Shown here: positions 21,144-42,885 of the stretch, in pieces
How positions within the stretch are numbered: the first letter of the stretch is position 1
Layout: every line of letters begins with the position of its first letter
Source: a virus
IMG/VR virus record: IMGVR_UViG_3300050016_000026
Coordinates: 1 to 46,549 of that record
DNA: 46,549 nucleotides
Strand: one strand, 5' to 3'
Program-made: the position numbers and the translations under genes
The notes under the pieces: generated by a model
What the model saw: the letters and a program-made list of their open reading frames with translations, nothing else
Databases searched by the model: none
What the model was told of the DNA's origin: nothing

Positions 21144-21159
21144 CGGTCACTGACGTATG

Positions 21160-21429
21160 CTCGTACATAGCTAAGACATTGATAGTGCAATGCTTTCAGC
21201 TAGTTGCGAACCATTCGCAACTAGGATTAGGTTGAAACACCGTTTAATTGCAACCTATGCGCTAAGACATGTACGAGCGTGCAATCCGTGTTTAAAGCAC
21301 GAATATCGTATCAATTCAATAGCTTGCACATACTCGTACATGTCTCGTACATGTATCGGACATGTCCAAAGGACTAGCTGGGACTGCTCGTACACCACCG
21401 TCACCCCCTGAAGGGGACGGTTGTACGAG
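21160..21429. repeat. Six copies of CTCGTACA / TGTACGAG
   Basis: Forward copies at 21160-21167, 21333-21340, 21344-21351 and 21387-21394; reverse copies at 21270-21277 and 21422-21429. The last forward/reverse pair flanks a strong inner dyad (CCGTC-A-CCCC / GGGGACGG), giving a composite inverted repeat at 21387-21429. Repeated short sites of this density suggest binding sites for a regulator or an initiator. Confidence 0.8.
21200..21224. promoter_or_regulatory. Palindrome CTAGTTGCGA-N5-TCGCAACTAG, site B
   Basis: Arms identical to site A at 20675 with the same 5-nt spacing but a different loop. It lies upstream of the candidate early promoter. The right half with flanks (CATTCGCAACTAGG) recurs at 21533-21546. 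Confidence 0.65.
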
Positions 21430-21684
21430 TATCCCAAGCCCCTCGTAGCATATCCCCATAAATTCGGCCGACCCGAAAACCGTCGTCGCTAAGCGCATAA
21501 AATGATCAGATCGAACAAAGGATATTGCGACGCATTCGCAACTAGGGATCAAAGCATGCTATCGTCAGACTCCACCCTACCCCCAATTTCACGCGCCCAC
21601 CACGAATTTCAACCGCCCTCTGTCCCGCGCGCTAAAAATTTTGGAATTTTTGAAAATGGCGGATTTCCGCGGTTTCTGGAAAAC

Positions 21685-34891: not shown

Positions 34892-36214
34892 ATGGTCAAC
34901 GCAGCATTCAAAGACAGCCTCGACATCGCAAACCGGTCGCTCGATCACCTCGGGCTGCCGCACATTTTGTCGATTGGCGAAGACAGTACCCGCTACCAGG
35001 TCCTGTCTGGTGTCTACGACAAGTTGCGCCAGTACGAACTGCGCCGCAACATCTGGCGCTTCTCGAAGCGCAAGTGTTTCATGCGGCCCATCGACGTCAA
35101 CACGCGCAAGCTCGCGCCTGCGCTGTGGAACTCGACCTACACCTATCAGCCTGGCGCCATCGTGCAATGGAACAACGGCGACCTCTTTGTTACCTTCGAG
35201 ACGGACAACGTTGGCAACGACCCCTCTCTCACTGACCACTGGGAGGCATACTATGGGTCACAGGCAGCCCTTCTCTATGATCCGACGATCAGCTACTACG
35301 AAGGCGAACTGGTCTACATGGCAGGCACTCTGGCGGGAAGCTTCATCGTCTACCTATCGCTGGTCAACGCCAATATCGCGACCGGGGTTCCGGTCACGGG
35401 CACTACTCCGAATGTCGCTACAGCTTGGAGCGCGACCGACACCTACGACCTTGATGACATGTCATACTACGCCGGCCTGCAGTGGCGCAGTACCATCGCG
35501 GTCAACCTGAACAACACACCGGCTGTGGCGCCGAGTGATTGGGCAATCGGGGTCACCTACGGTGCAGCGGCTACTGCCACCGGCAGTGATGGCTATGTCT
35601 ACACTTCCATCGCCGGCAGCAACCTCGGCAATGATCCGGTGGCTGACACCACGCACACCTATTGGACACAGGGCGTTCCCTACGCTTGGTCGCGCGTTCC
35701 GGCGCTGCAGCCGAGTGGCAACACTTGGCTGCCTCTATTCTGCGGACTGAAGCCGCTGGGCATCGACAGCCTGGGCATGGCTATCCCCGCGGCCATCGGA
35801 CAGGACAACAACTACTTCCTTCTGCCGGCCGGCTACCTGCGCGAGGCCCGGCTCAATCCTGACCTGTCGTTGGCATCGAATGATCACCACGTCTACGGCG
35901 ACTACATCATGTCGACTGACAACAACATCCTGTTGGCCTACGCCGCCGATATGACCAAGGTCGTTCGCTTCGATACTATGTTCTGTGAAATGCTGGCGGC
36001 CACGATGGCTTACCAGACTTGCGAGCGGCTGACGCAGAGCACCAGCAAGCAGGGCGCCTGTCTGCAGGCGTACAAGACAGCCGCCAATGAAGCGCGTGAG
36101 GTCAACAGCATCGAGGTCGGTACTCAGGAAGCAGACATGGACGACTGGATTGCAGTGCGCGAGCGTGCCGCTGGGGGTGGAGGCGGTACTGGCCTCGGCT
36201 ATGGTGGCTGGTAA
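34892..36214 (+). CDS. Tail tubular protein A (T7 gp11-like) with inserted binding modules
   Basis: 440 residues, about twice the length of T7 gp11. The N-terminus (DIANRSLDHLGL, then LRQYELRRNIWRFSKRK) and C-terminus (KVVRFDTMFCEMLAATMAY, ending Gly-rich) form the gatekeeper fold. Residues about 85-290 are an insertion of CBM5/12-like modules with Y-x-GD/L-V...Y...N...P...W spacing, including TGSDGYVYTS at about residue 230. It binds below the portal and joins tube protein B. The insertion probably displays carbohydrate-binding domains on the tail. Confidence 0.85.
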   Translation: MVNAAFKDSLDIANRSLDHLGLPHILSIGEDSTRYQVLSGVYDKLRQYELRRNIWRFSKRKCFMRPIDVNTRKLAPALWNSTYTYQPGAIVQWNNGDLFVTFETDNVGNDPSLTDHWEAYYGSQAALLYDPTISYYEGELVYMAGTLAGSFIVYLSLVNANIATGVPVTGTTPNVATAWSATDTYDLDDMSYYAGLQWRSTIAVNLNNTPAVAPSDWAIGVTYGAAATATGSDGYVYTSIAGSNLGNDPVADTTHTYWTQGVPYAWSRVPALQPSGNTWLPLFCGLKPLGIDSLGMAIPAAIGQDNNYFLLPAGYLREARLNPDLSLASNDHHVYGDYIMSTDNNILLAYAADMTKVVRFDTMFCEMLAATMAYQTCERLTQSTSKQGACLQAYKTAANEAREVNSIEVGTQEADMDDWIAVRERAAGGGGGTGLGYGGW

Positions 36215-37932
36215 TGCCGGGCATCAGCAATGCGCAAACAGACTTCCGTGGTGGATTGTGGTCGCCGTCTGCGCAAGGGCGCTTTGACGACCCTCGCTAT
36301 AAGACGGCACTCAATGAAAGCTTCAACGGCTTCCCTGTTCAGGAAGGTCGTTGGAACCGCAGACCCGGATTTCGAGTGGCTAACCACACTCGCGGCTACC
36401 AGCCTGCGCTGCTCCATCCCCTGTCAGTGATCGCTGCCCCTTCCCACGCCCTGGAATTTACCAGCGGCCACATGAGGCTGTTCCAAGGCGCCAACATCGT
36501 CATGGATGACGAGCGTCAGGTTGTCTCCTCATTCTCTACGGCTAACCCGACTGTCTGCACGACCAGTGCCCAGCACGGGTGGAACAATGGTGACGGTATT
36601 ATCTTCAGGGTGGAGGGGATCACCTCTGCCGGCATCATCAGCGATCTAGCCCCCATCCTTCAGCGTGAGTTGTCGATTGCCGTCATCGACGCATTCTCTT
36701 TCTACGTCTATAACTCGGAGACAGGTCGCGGCCTCGACGGCAGCTTGATCGACTTCGACAACACTGACGTGCAGCTTTCTGTAGGCCGCATCACCGACTT
36801 CTCGACGCCCTACGTGAATGACGATTGGGCCGGCGTCGACATCGCGCAGAACGACACCGATGCGTTCCTGCTGCACGGCAGCTACCAACCTCAGGACCTC
36901 ACCATCAAGACAGCGCAACAGCCCTTCACTGTTGTACCGGCAGAGTTTCAGGATGGTCCCTACCTCGACCAAATCAGCGGTGTCGTCGCCACAGTGACGC
37001 AGCCGGCAACATGGTCGAACAGCCACACGTACAACAGTGGAGATACGTCGACTGGCAGTGATGGCTATGTCTACACCTCCTTGATTGTCAGCAATCTGAA
37101 CCATGACCCCACCTCTGATGATGGCACCCATTGGCATAAGGACAGCACCGCGCTGACTGGCGTCATCAATCTGTCGTTCTCCTACACTGCGTGGGATGCG
37201 ACCATTGCGTACTCGATTGGCGACTTCGTAGGTGTGCCAGGTACAGCCTTCGGCTATCAGAGTTTGATCGCCTTAAACCAGAACAATAATCCTGCCGCCT
37301 CGCCCACTGCATGGAAGCAGGTGTCCAACCTAACCGGCTTCGCCAACAAGGGCGCCGGCATCACTGAGGAAGACATCGGCCGCCACATCCGTATCCAGTC
37401 GGAGCCGCCGCTGTGGCTGACCAACACCACCTACGCAGTGGGTGCCAACGTCACGATGGGCACCAGCATGACTGACCCCAGCCGGCAGTATTGGACCTGT
37501 ATCTCAGCCGTCACCAAACAGGTTGTAGCTATTGGCGTCACCGACACCAACCAACCCGGCATCGACCCCACACTGTGGGTGCCGAACCCCAATGCTATGC
37601 GCTTCACCTGGGGCGTGATCGTGCGCTCGGGCCCGCCTGTGCAATCGTCTTCAGTTGCCGCATGGACTATGCCGGGCTACACGTTGACACAGGATTGTGG
37701 TCGCTTGAATGCGGATGGCACCCCTAAGGCCCCGTACACCTATGCCTCCCCCATCAATGACCTGTCGCAGGTAGGGGCTTGCTGGTATCCGAACTGGTTG
37801 CTCGACCACGGTGAAATAGGTAGTACAGGTGGTACAATCGGTGACGCCGATTTCCCACAATCTGGGAGTTTCAGCACTGCGGCTATCGTCTACATCAACG
37901 TGGCTGTGCAGGGGTCAGGCACCTTGATGTAG
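36214..37932 (+). CDS. Tail tubular protein B (T7 gp12-like), N-terminal part ending at an in-frame TAG
   Basis: 572 residues from the ATG overlapping the previous stop. The start (NAQTDFRGGLWSPSAQGRFD, then EGRWNRRPGFRV) is the classic tube-B N-terminus. Residues about 265-440 hold three CBM5/12-like inserts, the first with TGSDGYVYTS as in tail protein A. The frame is stopped by TAG at 37930 and then continues open for 708 more codons (to 40056) with clear tube-B C-terminal sequence. The TAG is the only amber at the end of a late-strand frame. Readthrough, a mutation or a sequence error would each explain it. Confidence 0.85.
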   Translation: MPGISNAQTDFRGGLWSPSAQGRFDDPRYKTALNESFNGFPVQEGRWNRRPGFRVANHTRGYQPALLHPLSVIAAPSHALEFTSGHMRLFQGANIVMDDERQVVSSFSTANPTVCTTSAQHGWNNGDGIIFRVEGITSAGIISDLAPILQRELSIAVIDAFSFYVYNSETGRGLDGSLIDFDNTDVQLSVGRITDFSTPYVNDDWAGVDIAQNDTDAFLLHGSYQPQDLTIKTAQQPFTVVPAEFQDGPYLDQISGVVATVTQPATWSNSHTYNSGDTSTGSDGYVYTSLIVSNLNHDPTSDDGTHWHKDSTALTGVINLSFSYTAWDATIAYSIGDFVGVPGTAFGYQSLIALNQNNNPAASPTAWKQVSNLTGFANKGAGITEEDIGRHIRIQSEPPLWLTNTTYAVGANVTMGTSMTDPSRQYWTCISAVTKQVVAIGVTDTNQPGIDPTLWVPNPNAMRFTWGVIVRSGPPVQSSSVAAWTMPGYTLTQDCGRLNADGTPKAPYTYASPINDLSQVGACWYPNWLLDHGEIGSTGGTIGDADFPQSGSFSTAAIVYINVAVQGSGTLM

Positions 37933-37940
37933 ACGATAGC
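37882..37940. repeat. Perfect 17-bp inverted repeat containing the TAG
   Basis: Arms 37882-37898 and 37924-37940 are exact reverse complements, with a 25-nt loop. The in-frame TAG (37930-37932) is in the right arm, opposite CTA of the left arm. A chance repeat of this length at this spacing is improbable in 46 kb. Confidence 0.9.
37930..37932 (+). other. In-frame amber codon within the tail tubular protein B frame
   Basis: TAG in the same frame as both halves of the gene. Between it and the first possible downstream start (GTG 38008) 25 sense codons remain open (TIAPNAQVWTRNAGYSG...), so translation across it would give a 1280-codon frame. Confidence 0.9.
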
Positions 37941-38007
37941 TCCGAATGCACAGGTATGGACGCGCAACGCCGGTTACTCAGGCGCGCCTAGTAAACCTGT
38001 CTACACT

Positions 38008-40056
38008 GTGACTTCTGTCGGCAACCAGCTTCAGGAAGGTGTGCCCGGTACTCCGATTGGAAACATGACCGGCGGCGCCGGCCTGTCTGCCCTGTTCCGT
38101 CCGGGCACGCTCACCACCTTCGCCAGCAATCCCGGCAACACTGGCTACGCCGGCCTGCAGTTGCTCACCCCGGCATCTATCTCGTCGGGCCGCATCTACC
38201 CTGTCGACATTGCTCCCGGTGGCGCCAGTGCATTGGGCTTCACCCTGAACGGCTTCACGCGCGCGATCACAGTCAACATGTGGGCTAAGGCTACGCTGCC
38301 GGCCAACGAGCATGATGGCACTCTGCTCGGGTCCACCACTGTTGCCGGCCCGGTCACAAGCTCGGCGCCCATCGTTGTCGCATCCACTGATCCTACAACT
38401 TACTCGTATGTGTGGTTCGAGATAGTTGTAACGTCCGACTTCGACACGGTCGCCAGCTTCGAGCCCTTCGGCGGCACCTTCCGCTTCGGTCCCTTCTCTC
38501 AATTCTCGGTGGCGGCCTCCAAGATTTCGTTCTTCACCGACGCCAACAATCCCGCCGGCGCGCAGATTGGTGTCCAACTGAAGGGTGACCCCCTGCTCTA
38601 CACCGGGCTCGTCACCAACTGGCTGCTCGGGCGCTACAACAACCATGAGCCGAATTGGCCGACACACGGTGCCTTCTTCGAAGACCGTCTGTATCTGTCG
38701 TCCGGCGTCACCGCGCACGTTGATGCAAGTTGTGCCAACGGCAACCTTCTCGATATGGCGCCGACGCTGCCGGATGGGACTATCACTGATGCAAGCTCAC
38801 TGAGCTTCGACCTGATGACGGAGAGTAATAGCCCGATCAACTGGCTCAAGGCTGAAATACACGGCGTCCTGGTCGGCACCACCGCGCAAGAGTTCATCAT
38901 CCACTCTCCGGGTGAGACTGGGCCGATCACGCCTACGGCTCGAGCGGCTGATCCTTCTGGTGCATTCGGCACCGCTCCTGTGCTGCCGATTGCCACTACC
39001 ATTGGGCACGTCTTCGTGCAGAAGAACAAGCGCGACGTCTACGAACTATTCCGCGACGTCTACTCCGGGCAACTGACCTCGGTCACGATGTCGGAGTTTT
39101 CGCAGGGGCTTGCCAATCCTGGCCTAGTCCGTCTGGCCTACCAGCGCGGGCTCAGCCCGATCATTTGGGCGCAAACTGAAGATGGGCGCCTGATCGCCAC
39201 CACCTATCGGCGTGACCACAGGTTCAGCTATCAGCCGCCTACCTTCAATGGCTGGTCGCGGCATGCACACGGCGCCGGCCGCAGCATCATCAGCCTGTGC
39301 ATGAACAGTGGTGTAACTGGCGACCTGGATGCACCGACGATCATTTCGCAGGGTGAAGATGGCAAGTGCTACGTCGAGGTCATGGGTGACCTGATGGTGG
39401 ACACCGACAACGTGTACGCCAGCAACTACCTCGACAGTTCCATCACGCCGCACTCGGCCAGCTTCTATTCCGGCGGTGTCTACCTCTACGGCCTCTGGCC
39501 GCTTGAGGGCAAGACCGTCAAGGTTCTGCTGGCCGGCCTCGACTGCGGCAGCCAGTACCCTGTCCTCAACGGTACTGTGACTGTGCCCTTCAAGAGCGAC
39601 AGTGGTGGCTTGCTCACCCAGCGCTACCTGACCGAGCTTACTGGCATCGGCCAGGACTTCGCCGACCTGACTGTGATGATCGACGGCCAATGCCGGGCCC
39701 CGTGCCTGGTGGGCTTCGACTTCACTAGCCAAGGCCAGCGCCTGCGCCCGATGGAAGCTGCTGAGACTGGCAAGCAGAACGGGCCCGCCCTCGGTGCCTT
39801 CCGGCGCAACAACAAGTTCGCCATGTTGGCTACCAACACCCGCAACGTCCTGATCGGAACCGACTTCGGCCGCATGCACAAGGCCCAGTTCGCATCCCCT
39901 GGTGGCCGTGTCTACACACCTACAGAGTTGTGGAACGGTATCTTTTGGGATACTATAGATGATGACAGCACGGTTGACGGCATGATCTGCTGGCAGTCGT
40001 CTGGTCCCTTCCCGGTCAACATCAGCGCCATCGGCGGCTATGTGGAGACGCAGTAA
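38008..40056 (+). CDS. Tail tubular protein B, C-terminal part
   Basis: 682 codons counted from GTG 38008, though the open frame begins right after the TAG at 37932. It contains the conserved gp12-type core: EDRLYLSSG at about 215-223, FVQKNKRDVYELFRD near 335, and QRGLSPIIWAQTEDGRLIATTY near 375. No ribosome site precedes GTG 38008 or ATG 38065, so independent translation is doubtful; it is best read as the second half of the same tube protein. It ends in TAA overlapping the next ATG. Confidence 0.82.
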   Translation: MTSVGNQLQEGVPGTPIGNMTGGAGLSALFRPGTLTTFASNPGNTGYAGLQLLTPASISSGRIYPVDIAPGGASALGFTLNGFTRAITVNMWAKATLPANEHDGTLLGSTTVAGPVTSSAPIVVASTDPTTYSYVWFEIVVTSDFDTVASFEPFGGTFRFGPFSQFSVAASKISFFTDANNPAGAQIGVQLKGDPLLYTGLVTNWLLGRYNNHEPNWPTHGAFFEDRLYLSSGVTAHVDASCANGNLLDMAPTLPDGTITDASSLSFDLMTESNSPINWLKAEIHGVLVGTTAQEFIIHSPGETGPITPTARAADPSGAFGTAPVLPIATTIGHVFVQKNKRDVYELFRDVYSGQLTSVTMSEFSQGLANPGLVRLAYQRGLSPIIWAQTEDGRLIATTYRRDHRFSYQPPTFNGWSRHAHGAGRSIISLCMNSGVTGDLDAPTIISQGEDGKCYVEVMGDLMVDTDNVYASNYLDSSITPHSASFYSGGVYLYGLWPLEGKTVKVLLAGLDCGSQYPVLNGTVTVPFKSDSGGLLTQRYLTELTGIGQDFADLTVMIDGQCRAPCLVGFDFTSQGQRLRPMEAAETGKQNGPALGAFRRNNKFAMLATNTRNVLIGTDFGRMHKAQFASPGGRVYTPTELWNGIFWDTIDDDSTVDGMICWQSSGPFPVNISAIGGYVETQ

Positions 40057-40706
40057 TGGCTAGCACAGACTTCGGCTCCTCCTTCTCTGACTTCGGTACA
40101 GGTATCAGCGACTTGTTTGGCGCTGCAGGGAGTAGTGCGGAAGCGGGTGGCTTTACTCAGGCCGCCGCCGCCGAGCGTTCGGCCGCATCTATTTCGCAGG
40201 CAGCTACCAGCATCGAGGTTGCCGCCAATGACCGCAAGACTGAGAAAGCTGTCGGCCAGAACCAGGCTGAGAGTGGTGCAGCCGGCTTCAAGTTCACCGG
40301 CACCGGTGTGAACGTAGCCGAGGAGAACCAGCGTCAGGGCTCGATCAGTGCAGCGATCACTGAGGACAACGGCGCCATCAATACCCTGGGCTACACCGAG
40401 AAAGCCAATAAGGACACCGCTGACGCCTCGCAGGCTTCCTCCGCGGCAGCCGGTCAAGGCATCGGCGGTCTTATCAGTATTGCTTCCGGCATCTTTGGGC
40501 TGTTCTCTGATCGTAGGCTGAAGGAAAACTTCATACGTGTCGGCGTCGGCCCCAACGGCAAGAACTTGTACGAGTTCAACTACCTTGGACAGAAGGGGCG
40601 CTGGCGCGGTTACTTCGCGCAGGACCTCGACATGAGTGACGTGGTTGACGCGGTTGGCTTCCTGAGCCCGATCAAGCCCGAGGATAGGAGCGTTCAAGTT
40701 GGCTAA
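40056..40706 (+). CDS. Internal virion protein (gp14-like position) with S74-like C-terminus
   Basis: 216 residues, TAATG-coupled to the tube gene. Residues 25-150 are Ala/Ser/Gln/Glu-rich helix typical of small internal/ejection proteins. Residues 151-205 (FSDRRLKENF, then LYEFNYLG and GYFAQDL) look like the start of the peptidase S74 / intramolecular chaperone domain normally found on tail spikes. The catalytic Ser-Lys of the motif (SDRRLKE) is present, though the domain is short. The combination is unusual. Confidence 0.72.
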   Translation: MASTDFGSSFSDFGTGISDLFGAAGSSAEAGGFTQAAAAERSAASISQAATSIEVAANDRKTEKAVGQNQAESGAAGFKFTGTGVNVAEENQRQGSISAAITEDNGAINTLGYTEKANKDTADASQASSAAAGQGIGGLISIASGIFGLFSDRRLKENFIRVGVGPNGKNLYEFNYLGQKGRWRGYFAQDLDMSDVVDAVGFLSPIKPEDRSVQVG

Positions 40707-42885
40707 TCAGAATTTTGAAACCATCGACAACACTGAGAAGCTAAACCCAGAAGGTTTAGATAGGGCTGCTAGTGCCGATGCAGAGGCTGGCAGCTTCGCT
40801 AAGTCGATGATGGATCAGGTTGGCTCTAGCCTCGGCCGCGCAGTCGGCGATGTCGGCAAGGCACTGCAGTTCCACGCCGAGCAGGCGCAGAAGGCGAAGG
40901 ACACACAGGCCACACTCGACCTCACCACGCAGTCGATGAACTTCAACCTGCAGCATAGTGATCAGCTTGATAAGCTGGTAGCTTCGAACCCGCAGGACCC
41001 ACAGGCGGCGCGTGCGAGCTACACTGATGGCGTCCGCTCCGACTGGCAGACTTATTACGATCAAGCTCAGCAAGGTGGTGCCTCTCCTGAGACTTTGGAG
41101 AAGATTGCTACCCATATGGAGACGGCAGTCGGAGAAGCCTCGCGCTCCTCGGCGGCTGAGTTCGCCAACCTCAACGTAGCCAACATGCACTCCAAGGTGG
41201 GTGCAGTGATGGATGCTGCCACCGTGGCAATCGGCAATCACCCCTTCGATGATCAGGCCAATGCCCACGTCAGGGATACGGTCAATGAAGGGATCAACTC
41301 TGCCTTCGGTACCGACCCCTCAGCCAAGATGATCATCAAGGCCGATGGCTCCACGGAGAGCCATGAGACGGCTTTGACACGGGCGCAGTTCGAGGGCGCC
41401 TTGCAGGTTCCCGGTGGACCTCAGAAACTACAGACCAAACTTCTGGCTGGTGACTACGACAAGCTGCCAGGGATGACCGAGACATTGAAGGCTGAGTATG
41501 CCGACAAGGCAGCGACGGCTATTCGTACGCAGGATGCAGCGCAGAAGGCTGAAGTCGAGGTACAGACCAAGGCACAGAAAACTGCCTCTGAAGGTGCAGC
41601 CACCAGCCTGATCATGGGAACGGTTGATCCGGCAACTGGTGTCACCAGCATCGGTGCTGACTTCTTCAAGAAGGCACAAGCGTACGGAGCAATGCCTGGG
41701 GTCACAGCGGATGAAGCCGAGAACGTAGTCAAGTGGGGCGAGGCCATCAAGGATGGCAAGCTCGATCACGTGGTTGACGATAAGGCTACCCGTGATCAAC
41801 TGCAGGCGCAGGCCAATGATCACACGCTCACCGCCAACACCGTGATCCAGGCAACCCTCGACGGTAAGCTGTCCAAGAACAGCAGCGAGTTGTTTGTCAA
41901 GCTGGCTAAGCCGGCTGAAGCTGGTGGCCTCACGCAGGACGACCGTGATGCTATGGCGCAGGCGAACAAGGACTACACTCCTCACATGGCCCTCGATGCT
42001 AACTCGAGTGACATCACTAAGGCGTACGGCACTGATCAGGAGTATCAGACGTGGCTTGGTGCCGCTCTCAATCGTGGGTTCAAGGCCGGGCATACTGCGT
42101 ATGAAATGTTGCAGGACCCGACCAGTCCATTCTACCTACGCAATAAGCCTGACGCCAATGGCAAGATTGCCAACCCCTCGACCACGTTCGACCCCAGTCA
42201 GGTTGACTTGACCAAGCAGCCGATCATGTTCCCGCCCGGTGTCAAAGCGCCGGCTGCATCTGGACCTCAGCAAGCTGCGCCTATCCAGCAGGACAAGGTG
42301 GACAGCATCATGTTCGGTGGCGGACAGAGCAACAATGATACAGTCACTCCCAAGGCCACCCCTGTGGCAACTCCCAAACCCACCAACACCAGCTTTGAAA
42401 TGCCGGCTGATGCTCCCACCATCGCCGGCTACCATGCCCACTTCAATCGCATGAACACCGAGGAGTTCGGTGACCCACATGAAGCTGGTTGGGAAGCAGC
42501 GAACATCACCACGATCAAGGCCGGTGATCAGGATGTACGTGTGAACAAGCAGGCGGCTCCGCATTTCGAGGGGTTCCTCAAGGACTTGGCAGCCTCGGGC
42601 TATAAGCTCGATAACGTCAGTGGCTACGTCCTGCGTGACAAGCGCGGCGGCAGCGGCCTCAGCCAGCACGCCTGGGGCAACGCCATCGACATCAACCCGA
42701 AGCAGAACCCGATGACTGCCAACGGGCAAGTCGTCACCAACTTGCCGTCTCAGATAAGGACTATCGCCGCCAAGTGGGGCCTATCGTGGGGGGCAGACTT
42801 CCGCGGTCAACGCAAGGACAGCATGCACTTCGAGTGGACCGGTAGCCCGCAGACTGGGAAGACCTTTGAGGAAGCCAGCCTCTAA
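40699..42885 (+). CDS. Internal virion protein with C-terminal M15-like peptidase
   Basis: 728 residues from TTG 40699, which has AGGAG 8 nt upstream and overlaps the previous gene by 8 nt. Residues 1-500 are Lys/Gln/Ala-rich coiled helix, as in ejection proteins. After a Pro-rich linker (about 515-570), a peptidase M15/VanY-like domain has SQHAWGNAIDIN (His657, Asp664) and SMHFEW (His710), the zinc ligands. It would cut peptide cross-links locally as the tail passes the cell wall at entry. Confidence 0.85.
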   Translation: MANQNFETIDNTEKLNPEGLDRAASADAEAGSFAKSMMDQVGSSLGRAVGDVGKALQFHAEQAQKAKDTQATLDLTTQSMNFNLQHSDQLDKLVASNPQDPQAARASYTDGVRSDWQTYYDQAQQGGASPETLEKIATHMETAVGEASRSSAAEFANLNVANMHSKVGAVMDAATVAIGNHPFDDQANAHVRDTVNEGINSAFGTDPSAKMIIKADGSTESHETALTRAQFEGALQVPGGPQKLQTKLLAGDYDKLPGMTETLKAEYADKAATAIRTQDAAQKAEVEVQTKAQKTASEGAATSLIMGTVDPATGVTSIGADFFKKAQAYGAMPGVTADEAENVVKWGEAIKDGKLDHVVDDKATRDQLQAQANDHTLTANTVIQATLDGKLSKNSSELFVKLAKPAEAGGLTQDDRDAMAQANKDYTPHMALDANSSDITKAYGTDQEYQTWLGAALNRGFKAGHTAYEMLQDPTSPFYLRNKPDANGKIANPSTTFDPSQVDLTKQPIMFPPGVKAPAASGPQQAAPIQQDKVDSIMFGGGQSNNDTVTPKATPVATPKPTNTSFEMPADAPTIAGYHAHFNRMNTEEFGDPHEAGWEAANITTIKAGDQDVRVNKQAAPHFEGFLKDLAASGYKLDNVSGYVLRDKRGGSGLSQHAWGNAIDINPKQNPMTANGQVVTNLPSQIRTIAAKWGLSWGADFRGQRKDSMHFEWTGSPQTGKTFEEASL

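Follow-up and report, generated by a model that had tools for sequence, protein, structure and literature searches.

An in-frame amber codon within a perfect inverted repeat of a phage tail gene, a probable footprint of template switching

The interrupted tail gene and its inverted repeat

The window analysed here is the whole 46,549-nt stretch of DNA. Its late genes form a row that includes portal, capsid and tail genes, among which lies a frame of 1280 codons with a TAG as its sole internal stop (Table 1). The phrog_376 profile matches the encoded protein in two halves, with profile positions 2–249 aligned before the stop (E-value 3e-26) and positions 261–593 after it (5e-39). Distant phage relatives of this protein carry the annotation tail tubular protein B, and the upstream neighbour of the gene is a phrog_394 tail gene. 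Judged by homology, the interrupted gene is that of a podovirus tail tubular protein B of the phrog_376 family. Its frame downstream of the TAG is intact and has a coding signal. The late genes that could be compared with those of relatives are all full length.

Table 1. Positions in the window of the tail gene and of the features found within it.
Feature	Position	Strand	Remarks
Tail tubular protein B-like gene (phrog_376 family)	36214..40056	+	single frame interrupted by TAG
Extra domain, ~130 residues	37621..38010	+	common only to L104 among relatives found; holds the repeat
Arm 1 (5′ arm)	37882..37898	+	encodes AIVYI(N); perfect arm; probable source copy
Loop, 25 nt	37899..37923	+	ends pair 6/8; possible older quasi-palindrome
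Arm 2 (3′ arm)	37924..37940	+	encodes LM*TI(A); probable rewritten copy
In-frame amber codon TAG	37930..37932	+	within arm 2

The segments GCTATCGTCTACATCAA (arm 1) and TTGATGTAGACGATAGC (arm 2) are perfect 17-nt reverse complements. A sequence-only reading had already placed the amber codon in one arm of such a repeat, with a 25-nt loop and inside a coding gene, and its coordinates proved exact. Pairing continues imperfectly inward of the 17-bp arms, giving arms of 25 nt that are 92% complementary and enclose a loop of 9 nt. No perfect short-loop inverted repeat of the 46.5-kb window is longer than this one of 17 bp, the runner-up having 13 bp, and no other one of at least 16 bp was found across the 1.67 Mb of loci examined. 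The expected number of perfect repeats with arms of at least 17 bp and a loop of 3–60 nt is ~2.4e-4 per window and 0.009 per 1.67 Mb of loci. When the codon order of the tail gene was shuffled (1000 trials), the longest inverted repeat never exceeded 13 bp. Shuffling of synonymous codons often re-forms the hairpin at the same site because the encoded protein already contains the copied arm, and is not an independent null. Folded as RNA, the repeat region reaches −43.2 kcal/mol (z = −4.1). The 17-bp inverted repeat is a real, non-random feature of the sequence. A mobile element was rejected as its source: allowing for as many as 2 mismatches, the window holds no further copy of the arm, and viral contigs lack the arm-loop-arm pattern.

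The extra domain that holds the repeat gave no Rfam family near significance and the codon signal continues through it, results that led us to reject a group I/II intron or another RNA element. Structure predictions of the domain were too poor for use (pLDDT 45 and 42). Elsewhere in the tail protein, at residues ~260–320 (window 36988–37170), there is a W..xY..GD..xxG..Y module with further matching segments in the preceding tail gene of relatives L104, L048 and L051; in the window that preceding gene occupies positions 34892–36214, and the module is a shared, repeat-like one. A large protein of the structural block (40699–42885) carries an M15 peptidase (endolysin-like) domain at its C-terminus. 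The early and late gene blocks are divergent, and between them lies a cluster of direct and inverted repeats (21157–21546) with CTCGTACAT-type units and two occurrences of a TTGCGAAxxxTTCGCAACTAG hairpin, a candidate control region or replication origin.

Comparison with relatives and between the two arms

A homologue of the tail protein is present in 29 of the 39 related virus records searched, and internal stops were seen in none of the matches. The closest relative sampled, L104 (IMGVR_UViG_3300036766_000065), is 45% identical across the whole protein and also carries the extra domain, as one open, stop-free frame (27% identity over 171 residues, E 4e-5). This domain is missing from eight other aligned relatives. 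The 12-kb locus of L104 has no perfect inverted repeat of at least 10 bp, and neither arm was found as a DNA sequence in this sole relative with the domain. Relatives closer than L104 were absent from the collections searched, which may omit records very near the window, and searches of annotated-phage DNA with the repeat region yielded nothing useful. As far as these sequences tell, the tail gene is normally unbroken and neither the stop nor the hairpin is conserved.

A tblastn alignment to L104 passes through the repeat in one frame, the flanks of arm 2 being collinear on both sides. In a MAFFT alignment arm 1 is ungapped (AIVYIN facing VIAQFN), and a 5-residue gap in L104 lies beside arm 2, a weak indication given the low identity (27%) of this stretch. 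Codon adaptation was calculated for both arms and compared with the 6-codon windows of the late genes: arm 1 scores 0.93 (93rd percentile) and arm 2 scores 0.31 (lowest 0.4%). Values of 0.2–0.4 occur in 20% of antisense copies of coding 17-mers in the same phase versus 2.3% of native windows. The unusual codons of arm 2, besides TAG, are ATA, TTG and ACG. Because its codons are unusual and it adjoins an insertion relative to L104, the likeliest origin of arm 2 is antisense copying of arm 1. The opposite order, with arm 2 as the older state, cannot hold for a functional gene unless the stop is translated. A stop codon is found in ~17% of antisense 17-mer copies read in the given phase; with about one copy in six carrying a stop, the TAG needs no special cause.

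A second long inverted repeat in coding sequence was observed in the related phage L162 (918–971). It has 15-bp arms and a 24-nt loop, contains no stop, leaves the frame intact and sits in a small conserved gene after the capsid gene. Residues encoded by both arms deviate from the otherwise conserved family pattern and there is a one-residue insertion at arm 2. This 15-bp repeat is perhaps a tolerated template switch.

Origin of the repeat and of the stop codon

We assign a probability of roughly 0.6 to the repeat having been left behind by a short double template switch as DNA was being synthesised. The polymerase, while copying the downstream stretch, would have briefly taken the nearby arm 1 as antisense template before going back to its proper, collinear template. 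The original sequence of arm 2 would have been replaced in this way by a perfect reverse complement of arm 1, and the TAG would have fallen in the reading frame by accident. We infer both the switch and its direction from the codon usage of arm 2 and the comparison with L104, which also make the rewriting of one arm by template switching the best supported of the three origins put forward in the sequence-only reading. There are documented cases of template switching that yields perfect stems or homogenised arms in coding DNA (PMC8794818, PMC8604942, PMC7202029). Barring suppression of the stop, the assembled genome would encode a shortened tail protein that probably does not function; most likely, the scar inactivates or weakens the tail gene in this assembly. 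Several points speak against a template switch. In a living phage population, the consensus sequence would not be expected to carry a nonsense mutation in a conserved virion gene. A C:C mismatch borders the innermost pair of the perfect arms, and a simple self-primed fold-back at the inner CAC/GTG pairing would have left no such mismatch. Finally, the pre-event state cannot be reconstructed from a single domain-bearing relative that is 27% identical there.

It is unlikely, though well within consideration, that a chimeric molecule or an assembly error wrote arm 2 and that the phage's own gene is intact. On this reading there would be no consensus genome with a broken essential gene to explain: the lesion would knock out a tail gene that is essential, whereas the comparable late genes are all full length. 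The window is moreover a single uncultivated virus record, and chimeric reads tied to inverted repeats in library preparation are documented (PMC10908179). After a fold-back, however, the molecule would run on as the stretch upstream of arm 1 in reverse complement (CGCAGTG...), whereas the contig goes on with TCCGAATG..., which keeps the frame and is collinear with L104. For an artefact, one molecule would also have to switch twice and its product to prevail over the true reads. The simple fold-back chimera that had been suggested from the sequence is disfavoured because the collinear frame resumes immediately after 17 nt, and what is left of that suggestion is a possible error of amplification or assembly.

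We regard it as improbable that the repeat arose separately in a fast-changing domain and that the TAG inside it came from an ordinary nonsense point mutation. The extra domain is indeed poorly conserved and L162 shows that a coding inverted repeat of 15 bp can occur without a stop. Two independent events nevertheless mean that chance must supply a nearly perfect 17-bp repeat and that the TAG needs a hit of its own, and the codons of arm 2 are unusual beyond the TAG itself.

There is very little to recommend a functional recoding, in which the hairpin would cause readthrough or bypass of the TAG to give full-length and truncated tail proteins, and we give marginally less credence to the hairpin and the TAG forming a young, lineage-specific device that makes both forms of the tail tubular protein. 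The frame that stays open past the TAG, the stability of the stem and the absence of TAG at the end of any homology-supported gene of the window are in favour of recoding. L104 and all other relatives seen are, however, without stop and hairpin at this place, a result that also tells against the proposal of a ribosome-slowing RNA element. From the geometry of the repeat, the TAG lies in the 3′ arm and the stem must therefore already be open when it is decoded, so that it cannot be a downstream block. The codon before the TAG is ATG, for which there is no matching in-frame ATG within 130 nt after the stop: the ATGs at 37946 and 37956 lie in other frames, and the next in-frame one is at 38065, a position that is Leu in L104. 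An internal restart after the stop was rejected, as its candidates at 38008 and 38065 are weak ribosome-site matches and the latter is the Leu position just mentioned. There is no tRNA gene in the window. TAG ends 95 of the 502 homologous late ORFs of this group, including two in the L104 record, and by this usage it is an ordinary stop in this phage group. Its reading as a sense codon is excluded by the occurrence of a single TAG in ~7000 late codons. The plus-strand late genes checked in the window (22528–46310) all end in TAA.

Comparison with known systems

The translational bypassing of T4 gene 60 similarly associates a TAG with a hairpin in one phage coding gene. It differs from the present case in that no matched in-frame take-off and landing codons that would restore the frame were found at the locus, the TAG is in the 3′ arm and the arrangement is not conserved. 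The structure-dependent chimeras of sequencing libraries described by the PDSM model produce inverted-repeat sequence through intramolecular pairing, as could be the case here, but such chimeric reads continue into the opposite strand, whereas the tail gene is back in collinear sequence at once. Perfect inverted repeats in coding sequence are likewise found as palindromes in nematomorph mitochondria (PMC6649704); there both arms encode conserved protein, whereas here one arm has a stop.

The scar left by the template switch that we favour has documented counterparts (PMC7202029, PMC8604942, PMC8794818): in E. coli lacZ quasipalindrome reporters, in the arms of inverted repeats in yeast coding genes and in rRNA stems, one arm turns into the reverse complement of its neighbour in one event. 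As in known quasipalindrome and short-range template-switch mutations, several adjacent bases would have been changed across a short spacer. The present case differs from them by having no parental sequence, the codon usage and a distant relative standing in for it, and by its outcome, which is a stop. It would provide a clean example of a single copying accident that writes a multi-base antisense patch, here with a stop, into a phage structural gene. A lone in-frame amber codon in a metagenomic phage should be checked for inverted-repeat footprints before recoding is inferred. Such a scar belongs to a known type of DNA copying accident and is ordinary in kind.
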